Assembly (NCBI RefSeq): GCF_025685415.1
Contig: NZ_JAGSYB010000001.1
Coordinates: 4,030,001-4,094,000 of the forward strand
Length of the DNA: 64,000 bases
Direction of reading: 5' to 3'
DNA from: Terriglobus aquaticus
GTDB taxonomy: Bacteria > Acidobacteriota > Terriglobia > Terriglobales > Acidobacteriaceae
Shown here: piece by piece, positions 5,326 through 15,658 of the stretch
Layout of the letters: each line of letters opens with the position of its first letter
How positions within the stretch are numbered: position 1 is the first letter of the stretch
Program-made: the position numbers and the translations under genes
The notes under the pieces: generated by a model
What the model was told of the DNA's origin: nothing
Databases searched by the model: none
Seen by the model: the letters and a program-made list of their open reading frames with translations, nothing else

Positions 5326-5808
5326 ATGGCAACTGCGAAGAAGTCCGCAACGAAGAAGTCGGGCGCGAAGAAGAGCGCTTCGAAGAGCTCGGCGTCGAAG
5401 GCAACGACGAAGAGCACCTCGGCAAAGAAGAGCACGGGCGCGAAGAAGACGAGCGCGAAGAAGGCGCCGGCCAAGAAGAGTGCCGCCAAGAAAACTTCGG
5501 CGAAGAAGAGCGCACCGCCATCAGTACGGCGCGCGACGAAGTCTGCGAACACTAAGGTAGCGGCCAGCCGCAGACACATTACCGGGGCGGACACGCGGAA
5601 GACACCGGGCAAGAAGAGTGCGAAGAAGGATTCGAGCGGGAAGAAGTCGAGCGCAGCGAATGCGTGTTGGCCTGGGTACCAGCCGACGCCGGGTAAGAAG
5701 CAAGGCGAAAAGGGAAGCTGCGAGCCCAAGCCACACCAGACTGCCGCCGAGAAGAAGGGCGATCAGAAGGCTGCGGCGGCGTCGAAGTTGAGCGGGCAGC
5801 GCAAGTAA
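5326..5808 (+). CDS. lysine/alanine-rich histone H1-like protein with C-terminal two-cysteine segment
   Basis: 160 residues. Residues 1-110 are almost wholly Lys, Ala, Ser and Thr in KKSAxKK-type repeats, as in bacterial H1/Hc1-like DNA-binding proteins. The last 50 residues differ: a short segment around CWPGYQPTPGKK carries Cys114 and Cys132 and looks like a folded or metal-binding patch. The gene is rich in AAG codons. A basic DNA- or RNA-compacting role is inferred from composition only. A second protein of the same style, with a different C-terminal domain, lies at 43855-44304. Confidence 0.85.
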   Translation: MATAKKSATKKSGAKKSASKSSASKATTKSTSAKKSTGAKKTSAKKAPAKKSAAKKTSAKKSAPPSVRRATKSANTKVAASRRHITGADTRKTPGKKSAKKDSSGKKSSAANACWPGYQPTPGKKQGEKGSCEPKPHQTAAEKKGDQKAAAASKLSGQRK

Positions 5809-5845: not shown

Positions 5846-8338
5846 ATGTGTTTGCGATCGGCTTTGCGCGCCCTGTTCTGTTCTGCCCTCTTGATCCCTG
5901 CCAGCGGCGTGTTGATGGCTCAATCCACGCCGGCCGCGACGGCGAGCGGGCAAGCGGTCGCGAGCACGCCTAAGAGTGCGGAGCCACCGGCGTCGAACCT
6001 GATGCGCGGAGCATATGGGCCGGAGCGGGCGAACAACGACCTGCTGCACTACACGCTGGACGTGCGTGTCGATCCGGTAGCGAAGACGATCAAGGGCACG
6101 GTCGCGGTGCGGTTCAAGATGCTGCAGGATGGGTCGCGCATCCAGTTGGACCTGACGCCGACGCTCCAGATCGATAGCGTGCGCATGGGCGGCAAAGACC
6201 TGAAGTATGAGCGTGCGGGCACGCCGTTCTTCGTGGACTTTGCGAAGGCGCTGAAGCGCGGCAAGACGTATGAGGTGACGGTTGCGTGGTCCGGCGCTCC
6301 GAAAGCGGTGGGGCGCTTTGGCGGCATGGTGTACGGCAGCGATCCGCAGGGTCGGCCGTGGATTTATACGAGCTGCGAGGATGACGGCGCGAGCATCTGG
6401 TGGCCGAACAAGGACCAGTGGCGCGACGAACCGCAGGAAGGCGTGGACATGCACGTGGCGGTGCCGAACGGGCTGACCGCGGTGAGCAATGGAAGGCTGC
6501 TGGGGTCGAAGGACCTGGGAAATGGCTACACGCGGTGGGACTGGCGCGTGACCTACCCGATCAACAACTATGACGTGAGTCTGAACATAGCCACGTATGC
6601 GCACTGGAGCGACAAGCTGGTGTCGCAGTACGGCAACGTGGACATGGACTTCTATGTGCAGCCGGAGAACCTGGAGAAGGCGCACACGCAATTTGCGCAG
6701 GCCGGCCCGATGCTGAACGTATTTGAGAAGTACTTTGGGCCGTACCCGTTTGTGCGTGATGGATACAAGCTGGTGGAGATTCCGTATGCCGGCATGGAAC
6801 ACCAGAGTGCCGTCGCGTATGGGAATTCCTTTCAGAACGGATACGCGAAGCGCGATTGGCTGGGAACGGGGATCAACAACCGCTTCGACTTCATCATCAT
6901 TCACGAGAGCGGGCACGAGTGGTTTGGCAACAGCGTGAGCGCGGCCGATCCGGCGGACATGTGGATTCAGGAGGGATTCTGCACGTACATGGAAGACGTG
7001 TACGTGGAGGCGATGTATGGGCACGACGATGCGGTGAAATACATCAACGGCATGAAGAGCAAGGTGTATTTCGACAAGCCGGTGCTGCAGCCGCGCGGCG
7101 AGAACCATGACCCTTCGCGTGATCAGTACTTTAAGGGCGGGCTGCTGCTGAACACCTTGCGCAGTGCGGTGAACGACGACGCGAAGTGGTGGGCCACGAT
7201 GCACAACGTGGCGACGCACTTTGCGTACAAGAACATCCTGACCGAGGAACTGGTGGCATACATGAACCAGCAGCTTGGCAAGGACTACACGCCGGTGTTC
7301 AACGCCTACCTGAAGTATGTGTCGCTGCCGGTGCTGCAGTTGCGTTACCACGATGGCGTGGATGGTGCGACGGGCACCGTGGACTACCGATGGGACACGC
7401 CGGAGGCGGGTTTCAACCTGCCGGTGCGGGTCGGGGACCCGGCGCACTGGACGACGGTGCAGCCCAAGGTGGGCGAGTGGCAGATGATGCCGGGCAATCG
7501 TGCGACGTTTGCGGTGGACACGAAGGATTTCTACCTGCGCGTCATGCAGGACCCGGGCGATGCGGCGGGTAAGGAGCCTTCGACTGCCAGGTGGAAGATG
7601 GTGTGGAGCGACGAGTTCAATGCGCCGGATGGAACCCCGATCGACACGAAGGAGTGGAACGTGGAGGAGGGTGGCAATGGCTGGGGCAACAAGGAGCTGG
7701 AGACCTATACCGGCCGCGTGAACAACGTGGTGCAGCGCGGCGGCAACCTGGAGATTACGGCTCGGCGCGAGGACTTCACGGGCAAGGATGGGATTGCGAA
7801 GCCGTACACGTCGGCGCGCGTGAACACGCAGGGCAAGTTCAGCCAGAAGTATGGCCGCGTGGAGGCGCGCATGAAGCTACCGGACGGCGGGCAGGGTGTG
7901 TGGCCGGCGTTCTGGATGCTGGGCGAGCCGACGGCGGAGTTCAAGGACTGGCCGGGCATCGGCGAGATCGACATCATGGAGCAAATTGGCCGGGAAGCCG
8001 GCACGGTTCACGGCACGTTGCACGGGCCAGGGTACGGCGCGGACAGCCAGTTGGGGGTGCCGTTCAATCTGCCGAAAGGGAAGGCGTTCTGGGATGACTG
8101 GCACGTGTTTGCAGTGGAGTGGGAGCCGACGGCGATGCGGTTCTACGTGGACGGAACGCTGTACGGGACGGAGACGCCGGCCGATGTGCCGAGCGGTCAG
8201 AAGTGGGTCTTCGATCACCCGTTCTTTGTGATTTTGAATCTGGCAGTGGGTGGGCAGTGGCCGGGCAATCCGGATGAGACAACGAAGCTGCCGACAACCA
8301 TGCAGGTGGACTGGGTTCGTGTGTGGGAGAAGCAGTGA
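5846..8338 (+). CDS. secreted M1 metallopeptidase fused to GH16 glucanase
   Basis: 830 residues with a signal peptide (LIPASGVLMAQ, cleavage near residue 25). Residues about 55-560 are an M1-family (gluzincin) peptidase: H353-E354-x-x-H357 and the third ligand E376 in WIQEGF, with GMEHQ (316-320) where many M1 aminopeptidases have GAMEN. Residues 583-828 form a complete GH16 domain starting WKMVWSDEF. Its catalytic motif ExDxxE is GEIDIMEQIG (E707 nucleophile, D709, E712 acid/base), typical of bacterial laminarinases. The junction is a short linker near residues 568-582. I see no internal start with its own signal peptide for the GH16 part. Its stop overlaps the next gene's ATG (TGATG). Confidence 0.92.
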   Translation: MCLRSALRALFCSALLIPASGVLMAQSTPAATASGQAVASTPKSAEPPASNLMRGAYGPERANNDLLHYTLDVRVDPVAKTIKGTVAVRFKMLQDGSRIQLDLTPTLQIDSVRMGGKDLKYERAGTPFFVDFAKALKRGKTYEVTVAWSGAPKAVGRFGGMVYGSDPQGRPWIYTSCEDDGASIWWPNKDQWRDEPQEGVDMHVAVPNGLTAVSNGRLLGSKDLGNGYTRWDWRVTYPINNYDVSLNIATYAHWSDKLVSQYGNVDMDFYVQPENLEKAHTQFAQAGPMLNVFEKYFGPYPFVRDGYKLVEIPYAGMEHQSAVAYGNSFQNGYAKRDWLGTGINNRFDFIIIHESGHEWFGNSVSAADPADMWIQEGFCTYMEDVYVEAMYGHDDAVKYINGMKSKVYFDKPVLQPRGENHDPSRDQYFKGGLLLNTLRSAVNDDAKWWATMHNVATHFAYKNILTEELVAYMNQQLGKDYTPVFNAYLKYVSLPVLQLRYHDGVDGATGTVDYRWDTPEAGFNLPVRVGDPAHWTTVQPKVGEWQMMPGNRATFAVDTKDFYLRVMQDPGDAAGKEPSTARWKMVWSDEFNAPDGTPIDTKEWNVEEGGNGWGNKELETYTGRVNNVVQRGGNLEITARREDFTGKDGIAKPYTSARVNTQGKFSQKYGRVEARMKLPDGGQGVWPAFWMLGEPTAEFKDWPGIGEIDIMEQIGREAGTVHGTLHGPGYGADSQLGVPFNLPKGKAFWDDWHVFAVEWEPTAMRFYVDGTLYGTETPADVPSGQKWVFDHPFFVILNLAVGGQWPGNPDETTKLPTTMQVDWVRVWEKQ

Positions 8339-9576
8339 TGCGCGCGGCGTTGCGCTGTGGTCTGGGCGCGCTGGCTGCAGGAGCGATGCTGAGTGCGGCT
8401 GCTGCAGACGCGCAGGTGCTGCATCGTCTGGATGGAACGACGCTTTCTGCAGCGGAGGCGCAGCGGGTTGCGGATCGTGAGCTGGACGCGAACCATGTAA
8501 CCGGCGCGGAGATTGCCGTGCTGAACGGTGGCAAGGTGGTGTGGACGTACGCGCATGGACTGCGTCACAGAGCCGATGCAACGGTGGCCGGGGATGTGAA
8601 CCAGCCGATGACTCCGGAGACGAACACGTGGGCCGGATCGATCACGAAGAGTGTGTTCGCGACGTACGTGATGCAGCTGGCTGAGCAGAAGAAGCTTGAG
8701 CTGGATGTGCCTGTGGCCAAGCAGTTGCCGAAGCCGCTGAACGAGTACGAGGCGTATCGCGAGAGTGCTTCGGAGTTGGTGAAGGATCCGCAATGGCAGC
8801 GGGTGACTTCGCGGATGCTGCTGGCGCACGCGGGAGGCTTCAGCAACCTGATGCTGTTTACCGAGCAGGACAAGAAGCTGCATTTGCACTCGAAGCCGGG
8901 AACCGAATTTCGCTACTCGGGAGACGGCATGAATGTGGTGCAGTTCCTGGTGGAACAGCAGCAGGGCAAGCCCTTGGACGTGCTGATGCAGGAGGCAATC
9001 TTTGGCCCGCTGGGCATGTCCCAGACGAGTGAGATCTGGCAAAAGCGCTTCTCGGAGAACCAGGCAGACCGGTTCGACAAGGACGAGAAGTTCCATGCGC
9101 GAACGCAGCGTTTCCCGGCCAGAGCGTCGGGGAATATGAGTACCAGCGCGGTGGACATGGGCAAGTTCCTGGAAGCGCTGCTGGCGGGGCGCATCGTGTC
9201 GCGCAAGACGGCCGATCGGATGTTCACACCGTACCTGCGAATTACAAGCGTGCATGAGTTTCCGGTCGCGGGTGATGCGGCTGAAGGAGATGAGGCGAAG
9301 CGCGTGGGGCTGGCATACGGCATGGGCTGGGGCCTGCTGACGCGGACCAGGTACGGTCCGGCGTTCTTCAAGGAAGGCCATGGAGACGGAGCGCAGAACT
9401 ACCTGATCTGCTTCCGCCGCAGCGGCGACTGCATGGTCATCCTGACCAACAGCGACAACGGCGAGCTTGCGTTTCGACCGCTGCTGGAGCAGATTCTGGG
9501 CGACACGGAGACGCCGTGGGAGTGGGAGGGTTACACCCCAGAGGCGATTGCCCGGGCAAGGGCGTCGGGGTCGTAG
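8338..9576 (+). CDS. secreted serine hydrolase, class C beta-lactamase/penicillin-binding family
   Basis: 412 residues. Signal peptide MRAALRCGLGALAAGAMLSAAAADAQ. The active-site SxxK is S101-I-T-K104 and the second motif is Y193-S-G in FRYSGDGMN, as in class C beta-lactamases, EstB-type esterases and D-aminopeptidases. The C-terminal His/Lys motif is not clear; HGDGAQNY near residue 350 occupies the right place. The substrate is therefore unknown: peptide, ester or lactam are all possible. Its ATG shares one base with the stop of the M1-GH16 gene, so the two are cotranscribed and probably coupled. Confidence 0.85.
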   Translation: MRAALRCGLGALAAGAMLSAAAADAQVLHRLDGTTLSAAEAQRVADRELDANHVTGAEIAVLNGGKVVWTYAHGLRHRADATVAGDVNQPMTPETNTWAGSITKSVFATYVMQLAEQKKLELDVPVAKQLPKPLNEYEAYRESASELVKDPQWQRVTSRMLLAHAGGFSNLMLFTEQDKKLHLHSKPGTEFRYSGDGMNVVQFLVEQQQGKPLDVLMQEAIFGPLGMSQTSEIWQKRFSENQADRFDKDEKFHARTQRFPARASGNMSTSAVDMGKFLEALLAGRIVSRKTADRMFTPYLRITSVHEFPVAGDAAEGDEAKRVGLAYGMGWGLLTRTRYGPAFFKEGHGDGAQNYLICFRRSGDCMVILTNSDNGELAFRPLLEQILGDTETPWEWEGYTPEAIARARASGS

Positions 9577-14242: not shown

Positions 14243-15658
14243 ATGGGAACCATGCAGGAATCGCCGGTGTTGCAGCACCGTGGAGCGCCCGCGGACGAGC
14301 CGCCTACACGTCCGCATGGCGATGTAGACGATCAGTTGATCGGCGAAGTGCCCTTTCGGAGCTGGGGACGGTATCCGCTGTACCCGGCGAAGCTGGTGTC
14401 GCTGAACTGGCAGGATGATTTTCCGCGAGTAATTCAGCAGAACGCGGGCATGCCGGGTGGCGCGCTGGCGGTGGGCATGGGGCGCAGCTACGGCGATAGC
14501 TGCCTGCTGAAGGACGGCAACCTGATGGTTGCCACGGGCATGAACCGGCTGCTGAGCTTTGATGCTGCGAGCGGCTTGCTGACGGCCGAGGCTGGGCTGA
14601 CGCTGGCGCAATTGCTGGACTTTGCGGTGCCGCATGGATGGTTTCTGCCGGTGTCGCCGGGCACGAAGTATGTGACCTTGGGCGGCGCGGTGGCGAATGA
14701 TATCCACGGCAAGAACCATCACCTTGCGGGCACGTTCGGCAGCCATGTGCGACGGTTCACGCTGGTGCGCAGTGACGGAACGCAGATGGAGTGTTCGCCG
14801 ACCGAGAACTCGGATTGGTATGCAGCAACGATCGGCGGGCTGGGGCTGACCGGTGTGATCACGAACATCAGCCTGCAGTTGAAGCCGATCGTATCGCGGT
14901 TTATCGATTACGAGGGAATCCAGTTCCACGGCGTGGACGAGTTCCTGGCGCTGACCGAGCAGTACCAGCACGTGGAGTACACGGTGAGCTGGGTGGATGT
15001 GACCAGCACCGGCAAGAACTTTGCACGCGGCATCTTTATGCTGGGCGACCACTCCAAGATTCCGGACAAGCTGACTCGGTCCAAGGACCCGAAGCTGGTG
15101 TTTCCGCTGGACGCGCCGGGAGCGATGCTGAACAGCATGACGGTTGCGGCGTTCAACACGGCGTTCTTTCACAAGCAGATCAAGCCGCGGGTGCGGGCGC
15201 TGCAGGATTACGAGCCGTTCTTTTATCCCTTGGACAAGGTGCTGCATTGGAACCGCATGTATGGCAAGAGCGGGTTGCTGCAGTTCCAGTACGCCATTCC
15301 GTGGGAGAGCGCGCGTGAGGGCACGATCGCGATCCTGAACGAAGTTGCAAAGAGCGGTCTGGCCAGCTTCCTTGCCGTGCTGAAGGCATTTGGCGATGTG
15401 CCGTCGCCAGGAATGATGAGTTTTCCCCAGCCGGGCATCACGCTGGCGCTGGATTTTCCCATTAAGCCGGAGAAGAGCTTTGCGCTGTTCGACCGGCTGG
15501 CGGCGATGACGCTGGATTACGGCGGCAAGCTGTATCCGGCGAAGGATGCGCGCATGACGCCGGCACAGTTCCAGAAGAGCTATCCGGAGTGGCAGAGGTT
15601 TGCGCGGTACAAGGATCCGCTGCTGAGTTCGAGCTTCTGGGAACGCGTGACGCAGTAG
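14243..15658 (+). CDS. DprE1-like FAD-linked oxidase
   Basis: 471 residues. The PCMH-type FAD-binding half has GGALAVGMGRSYGDSC (about 75-90) and the segment GGAVANDIHGKNHH (about 150-165). That segment closely matches decaprenylphosphoryl-ribose 2'-oxidase DprE1 of actinobacteria, and a typical oxidase C-terminal domain follows. DprE1 oxidises the C2' hydroxyl of polyprenyl-phosphoryl-ribose, and DprE2 then reduces the ketone to give the arabinose donor. The next gene is a DprE2-like reductase, so the pair probably epimerises a polyprenyl-linked sugar here too. No UbiA-like ribosyl-lipid synthase is in the window. No signal peptide. Confidence 0.82.
   Translation: MGTMQESPVLQHRGAPADEPPTRPHGDVDDQLIGEVPFRSWGRYPLYPAKLVSLNWQDDFPRVIQQNAGMPGGALAVGMGRSYGDSCLLKDGNLMVATGMNRLLSFDAASGLLTAEAGLTLAQLLDFAVPHGWFLPVSPGTKYVTLGGAVANDIHGKNHHLAGTFGSHVRRFTLVRSDGTQMECSPTENSDWYAATIGGLGLTGVITNISLQLKPIVSRFIDYEGIQFHGVDEFLALTEQYQHVEYTVSWVDVTSTGKNFARGIFMLGDHSKIPDKLTRSKDPKLVFPLDAPGAMLNSMTVAAFNTAFFHKQIKPRVRALQDYEPFFYPLDKVLHWNRMYGKSGLLQFQYAIPWESAREGTIAILNEVAKSGLASFLAVLKAFGDVPSPGMMSFPQPGITLALDFPIKPEKSFALFDRLAAMTLDYGGKLYPAKDARMTPAQFQKSYPEWQRFARYKDPLLSSSFWERVTQ

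Follow-up and report, generated by a model that had tools for sequence, protein, structure and literature searches.

Does one gene of Terriglobus aquaticus encode a peptidase and a glucanase in a single chain, and if so, is the joint real, where did it come from and what would it be for? Here, we describe an M1 metallopeptidase gene joined to a glycoside hydrolase family 16 (GH16) glucanase, found in a 64,000-nt stretch (the window) of contig NZ_JAGSYB010000001.1 from this genome (G000). A first-pass annotation of the window had read the two domains as one uninterrupted in-frame fusion, and this reading holds: an 830-amino-acid (aa) chain runs as a single frame that begins with ATG and nearly fills the 833 aa between stops, with Pfam matches above cut-offs for both halves. 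The features of the gene are given below, with residue numbers of the 830-aa fusion protein and, where relevant, the predicted local distance difference test score (pLDDT) of the structure model.

5846..8338, + strand: M1 peptidase-GH16 glucanase fusion gene, 830 aa; single open frame
5846..5920, + strand: predicted signal peptide, cleavage placed by eye behind LMA (residues 1-25); sole hydrophobic segment, pLDDT below 50 at 1-17 and 19-47
6047..6568, + strand: Peptidase_M1_N, residues 68-241; Pfam PF17900, 37.2 bits (cut-off 25.8)
6701..7309, + strand: Peptidase_M1 catalytic domain, residues 286-488; Pfam PF01433, 62.1 bits (cut-off 27.7)
6902..6973, + strand: zinc site H353-E354-x-x-H357-X18-E376
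7331..7549, + strand: C-terminal beta domain of the M1 part, residues 496-568; strands in the model, aligned in stand-alone L034, L138 and L142
7553..7588, + strand: linker, residues 570-581, after the usual M1 stop position and low in pLDDT
7589..8335, + strand: GH16 catalytic domain, residues 582-830, without its own signal peptide; Pfam PF00722 and structural match to 2hyk
7964..7981, + strand: GH16 catalytic motif E707-I-D709-I-M-E712

A peptidase and a glucanase, both with complete active sites, form a single protein. The catalytic residues named in the first-pass annotation (H353, E354, H357 and E376; E707, D709 and E712) all lie at the positions it gave. In the GH16 half, the Glyco_hydro_16 profile (PF00722) covers residues 626-824 at 94.1 bits (cut-off 22), and E707, D709 and E712 are arranged as E-x-D-x-x-E on a beta-sandwich. 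E-x-D-x-x-E is the catalytic motif of GH16, and the half is presumably of the GH16_3 type. Its nearest solved chains are laminarinases, with which beta-1,3-glucan specificity would fit, and four glycanase NCBIfam equivalogs were matched, all far below cut-off. As had been claimed, no second signal peptide precedes this half: 19-residue windows with a mean Kyte-Doolittle value above 1.4 start only at residues 1-10, the beginning of the chain.

In the M1 half, both domains of the family (PF01433 and PF17900) are found above their curated cut-offs, and 18 residues separate H357 from E376, which agrees with the HEXXHX18E zinc site of family M1 (clan MA) as defined in an excerpt of PMC10343166. The exopeptidase motif at 315-319 reads AGMEH in place of GAMEN, with Met and Glu318 kept and the three other positions changed. 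Both the zinc site and AGMEH recur in the unfused M1 rows L034, L138 and L142 (3/3), and the majority consensus of the alignment is xGMEH. Further residues consistent with an M1 active site, beside Glu318, are Glu178 of the N-terminal domain (by eye) and Tyr428 in DQYFKGG; roles of the corresponding Glu and Tyr are described for human PSA, and the Glu of the exopeptidase motif is thought to hold the free N-terminus of the substrate in M1 aminopeptidases (PMC10343166, excerpt).

An AlphaFold2 model built with 66 aligned rows (fusion, M1 loci and GH16 loci) has a mean pLDDT of 81.8 and a predicted template modelling score of 0.64, and consists of two mostly well-folded parts. The pLDDT falls below 50 in the linker (571-581) and likewise in loops 329-336 and 363-367 of the M1 half, and the best structural matches of the GH16 part start at 581-583. 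The M1 part (both domains) matches the two-domain M1 peptidase of Deinococcus radiodurans (6koy; VIA-align Z 29.5, root-mean-square deviation (rmsd) 3.0, 408 aligned, 21% identity), with IRAP and LTA4 hydrolase within 1 Z unit of it; further entries for this distant solved relative are 6a8z and 6iff, with a fold Z of 29.2 to 6a8z. Stand-alone acidobacterial M1 metallopeptidases, L034 and L138 among them, are 51-62% identical to the M1 part when its C-terminal beta domain is counted in. By these structural matches, and by the stand-alone rows that carry the beta domain, the M1 half is a short M1 protein with an N-terminal, a catalytic and a beta domain. The GH16 part matches the Nocardiopsis endo-beta-1,3-glucanase 2hyk (VIA-align Z 37.1, rmsd 1.6, 236 aligned, 53% identity) and many laminarinases; 2hyk, 3atg (Cellulosimicrobium) and 3azx (Thermotoga) are matched at 47-53% identity and Z 35.6-37.1 over 236-243 residues. 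Unlike the fusion, these solved laminarinase chains contain no peptidase, and matching GH16 genes stand alone in unfused acidobacterial genomes.

The joint falls where the M1 protein normally ends, because 81 of 131 rows compared for reading on beyond the M1 part stop at position 569; the other 50 include 10 fusion copies and one that runs off its contig. These rows have at least 45% identity and matches that reach residue 545, and a gene listed under more than one locus id is counted each time. Other stand-alone M1 relatives stop slightly later than 569, and in the loci examined they have no GH16 downstream. L034, which comes from a lichen metagenome-assembled genome (MAG) and is the closest M1 without a fusion, ends 13 residues past the matched part. 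A connection of about 15 residues had been described; a linker is present, but its length is about 12, and its sequence varies among the three fused species.

Comparison with relatives had been proposed as the way to separate a fusion from a sequencing error. In an uncultured Terriglobus MAG (G207, locus L032), the same frame is open from end to end (809 aa, 66% identical, or 67% over 28-829) and Pfam supports both halves. Since a second species of the genus has this open frame, a sequencing error is ruled out as the source of the fusion, and the joint looks real and inherited. An Acidobacteriaceae lichen MAG (G206, locus L033) has M1 and then GH16 in the same order, with a frameshift where the GH16 half begins; coverage of that contig is 3.84, and the frameshift is possibly an error, a true break being the alternative. 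In a genus survey of 19 genomes, M1 of this type was found at 57% identity or more in 9, and it is fused in 3 of these 9, a small group of soil and lichen bacteria. The fused GH16 is the sole PF00722 match found in G000, and likewise in G207. We found no unfused paralogue in the T. aquaticus genome: its only further M1 is 24% identical, and PF00722 matches nothing else there.

The combination had been called unusual, and it is rare in what was searched. Searches of the family (200 genomes) and phylum (396 genomes), as well as of the genus and of GH16, draw on overlapping genome sets, with at most four candidates scored per genome in the family search and at most two in the phylum search. Using the whole protein as query, only the T. 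aquaticus genome spans both halves among the matches listed for the family (1/200) and for the phylum (1/396), G206 and G207 being outside these two draws; one or both halves occur as separate genes in many family genomes. Coverage beyond Acidobacteriota consists of a scan of genome contigs, PLSDB plasmids and PDB sequences, so other phyla may hold an independent M1-GH16 fusion. The contig scan, made with a single protein query and sensitive to close relatives only, is represented by the best 80 of 147 relatives; both halves are spanned in two of those 80 loci (L032, L033). The idea that M1 and GH16 genes commonly sit side by side is rejected, as the two share a locus only in these two of 80, both being the fusion (flanks of up to 5 kb, shorter on short contigs). 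Among 326 matching PLSDB records, none covers 80% of the query in a single place. No M1-GH16 combination was met in an open-access library that covers few subscription journals; judged by title and opening of the abstract, the papers found there concern other subjects, and in one of them the matched wording is 'Peptidase M16' (PMC4666044). The protein is two old, well-known families in a new combination.

Other long frames with an M1 or GH16 match were examined in 11 regions, none of which pairs M1 with GH16 in one frame: two are S9-M1, one has GH16 behind a GH10-like domain (by eye), and the rest are other M1 or GH16 chains. In the S9 (DPP-IV-like)-M1 fusions of acidobacterial genomes G340 (L156:2480-6487, 1335 aa) and G436 (L157:1886-5968, 1360 aa), this M1 family again shares a frame with a second hydrolase; in contrast to the present gene, the partner is a peptidase and stands on the N-terminal side, giving two peptidases per chain. 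As such chains exist in two other acidobacterial genomes, this M1 family has been fused more than once. The GH16 behind the GH10-type-looking domain occupies residues 669-917 of a 919-aa chain (L164:309-3068, G433). In G036, a GH16 gene is in frame with the end of another gene (L165:51-2438, reverse-strand coordinates) on a contig with undetermined bases, and this frame is probably two genes. Multicatalytic dockerin enzymes of Ruminococcus flavefaciens are a possible precedent only: excerpts of two papers name putative proteases among the dockerin proteins, and a protease sharing a chain with a glycosidase is not stated in those excerpts (PMC4081043, PMC2721979).

In a GH16 tree of all 39 rows, the three fused GH16 halves cluster at 99/98. 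In an M1 tree of 45 of 101 distinct rows, five of which represent the three fused genes, the M1 halves cluster at 93/80 and in 90% of 200 bootstrap trees, with unfused L034 adjoining this group (six rows together, 100/99). All three fused genomes have the order tyrS, lysine-rich protein gene, fusion. Because the trees group the GH16 halves firmly and the M1 halves less firmly, a single fusion event is likeliest, and one origin for all three fusions is the simplest reading. Rough ratios of nonsynonymous to synonymous substitution (dN/dS) by NG86, for G000 against G207 and G206, are 0.18 and 0.22 in the M1 half and 0.23 and 0.34 in the GH16 half; by NG86, dS was usable for 6 of the 10 pairs compared in M1 and 11 of the 15 in GH16, and by YN00 for none of the 25. 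With dN/dS well below 1, both halves seem to be under selection, though dS is near saturation.

What would such a protein do? Our best explanation, which we consider probable, is a secreted two-enzyme protein, most likely of one origin in an ancestor within the genus, that delivers both activities together to dead fungal or algal matter. The fusion would have arisen once, in the ancestor of a few Terriglobus species, when an M1 aminopeptidase gene of a kind common in acidobacteria acquired at its end a GH16 endo-beta-1,3-glucanase domain, likewise common, that had lost its leader, so that the Sec signal of the M1 half would now export the whole chain. Laminarinases are the closest relatives of the GH16 half, so the substrate that it would cleave is plausibly the beta-1,3-glucan in the walls of fungi or algae. 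The M1 half would remove residues from free peptide ends in the same dead matter; trimming of peptides is likelier than internal cutting of wall proteins, because M1 enzymes are aminopeptidases and Glu318 is kept. Of the earlier proposal that the protein attacks fungal walls or proteoglycan-like matter, the glucan part thus fits the likeness to laminarinases (53% to 2hyk), while the proteoglycan part is unsupported. The M1 half may process peptides freed by other enzymes, unless the altered GAMEN motif changes that. A flexible linker would let the domains work independently, and the probable gain lies in bringing both activities to a single place at once and in equal amounts rather than in new chemistry. 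In a related species, T. saanensis, an excerpt reports hydrolysis of starch, pectin and laminarin, not of lichenan or gelatin, and leucine arylamidase activity (PMC3570800).

Several points weigh against this explanation. Bifunctional activity is predicted from sequence and model, the exopeptidase motif of the M1 half is altered, and one of the three fusion copies (G206) is frame-shifted in its assembly. Support for the M1 halves (93/80) is just below the star mark, and the order within the fused group conflicts between trees, M1 pairing G000 with G207 (96/89) and GH16 pairing G000 with G206 (99/89); rapid evolution of G000, whose branches are the longest of the fused group in both trees, may account for this conflict. 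The dN/dS values are rough with dS so close to saturation, and GH16 is not the neighbour of M1 in the unfused loci examined.

A more ambitious version appears unlikely: that this is the first single-chain M1 aminopeptidase-GH16 glucanase acting in a coordinated way on fungal (lichen) wall glycoproteins or on peptides bound to glucan, in which GH16 would anchor the chain and open the glucan, the tethered M1 would trim the freed peptides, and the two would be more active joined than apart. About equally improbable is that the linker is cleaved by a protease once the chain has been secreted, in which case the fusion serves as cheap co-export of two free enzymes and the joint has no extracellular role. 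The linker is disordered in the model and would be a natural place for a cut, its sequence differs among the three species and the two enzymes are separate proteins in relatives, but this analysis found no sign of a cut and the linker is short. We find it distinctly less likely that a single half works and its partner acts as a passive carrier (such as M1 as leader and folding partner of the glucanase, or as a peptide- or wall-binding module); the change of GAMEN to AGMEH would suit this, whereas the retained HEXXHX18E site, exopeptidase-motif Glu and Tyr428, the presence of AGMEH in unfused relatives and the dN/dS values in both halves speak against it. That an assembly or sequencing error deleted a stop between two genes is highly improbable: one copy is frame-shifted just beyond the joint, but the GH16 half has no signal peptide before it, the frame is equally open in a second species and the T. 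aquaticus genome is 4.16 Mb in 2 contigs and 99.99% complete.

Co-delivery of two activities by one secreted chain remains the reading that we prefer, and the neighbourhood of the gene bears on its history. Two further genes of the window belong here.

8338..9576, + strand: serine hydrolase, beta-lactamase family (Pfam PF00144; SITK and YSG motifs), neighbour outside the fusion
14243..15658, + strand: FAD-binding oxidoreductase (PF01565), member of the old M1-serine hydrolase neighbourhood, with homologues in genus loci

The fusion had been described as coupled to the serine hydrolase by a one-base overlap. The overlap is there, between the fusion TGA (8336-8338) and a possible serine hydrolase ATG (8338-8340), with an alternative GTG start at 8323 that would make it 16 bases. 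In the fused genomes G206 and G207, the serine hydrolase has no match at E ≤ 1e-30; one-base coupling is for this reason a feature of this genome, not of the fusion, and a fixed tie between the two is ruled out. A lysine-/alanine-rich, histone-H1-like gene (5326-5808, 160 aa) lies just upstream of the fusion and is kept beside all three fusions; its product has no Pfam match at E 0.001.

Six unfused genomes of the genus have this M1 (G031, G095, G180, G205, G208, G209), and in them it is preceded by an L20-like gene, the start of whose product resembles ribosomal protein L20. The order in G095 and G180 is M1, GH13 alpha-amylase, serine hydrolase, GH29-like gene and FAD oxidase (Pfam on G095), and in G031 the serine hydrolase directly follows M1 (Pfam on G031 genes); it was not found in G205, G208 and G209 at E ≤ 1e-30. 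This type of M1 is missing from G200 and G201, which keep GH13, serine hydrolase and FAD oxidase. The FAD oxidoreductase is 78-89% identical in L137-L140, L144, L147 and L148, near an M1 or serine hydrolase gene. Across L137, L138, L139, L147 and L148, the L20-like, M1, GH13, serine hydrolase, GH29-like and FAD oxidase genes form a genus cluster with gains and losses. Both the serine hydrolase and the FAD oxidase are still present in the window, so an older peptidase-glycosidase cluster apparently persisted in altered form, with GH16 in the place occupied by a glycosidase gene in G095 and G180. This hints that a shared role of peptidase and glycosidase may predate the fusion; the old cluster does not itself foreshadow the M1-GH16 pairing, because GH16 adjoins M1 in no unfused locus examined.

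The gene is a clean case of unrelated secreted protein and polysaccharide hydrolases merging into one, and sister species still show the two unfused. It leaves known mechanisms unchanged and provides a ready candidate bifunctional enzyme, as well as a natural system in which to ask whether bacteria feed better on fungal or lichen matter when peptidase and glucanase are tethered.
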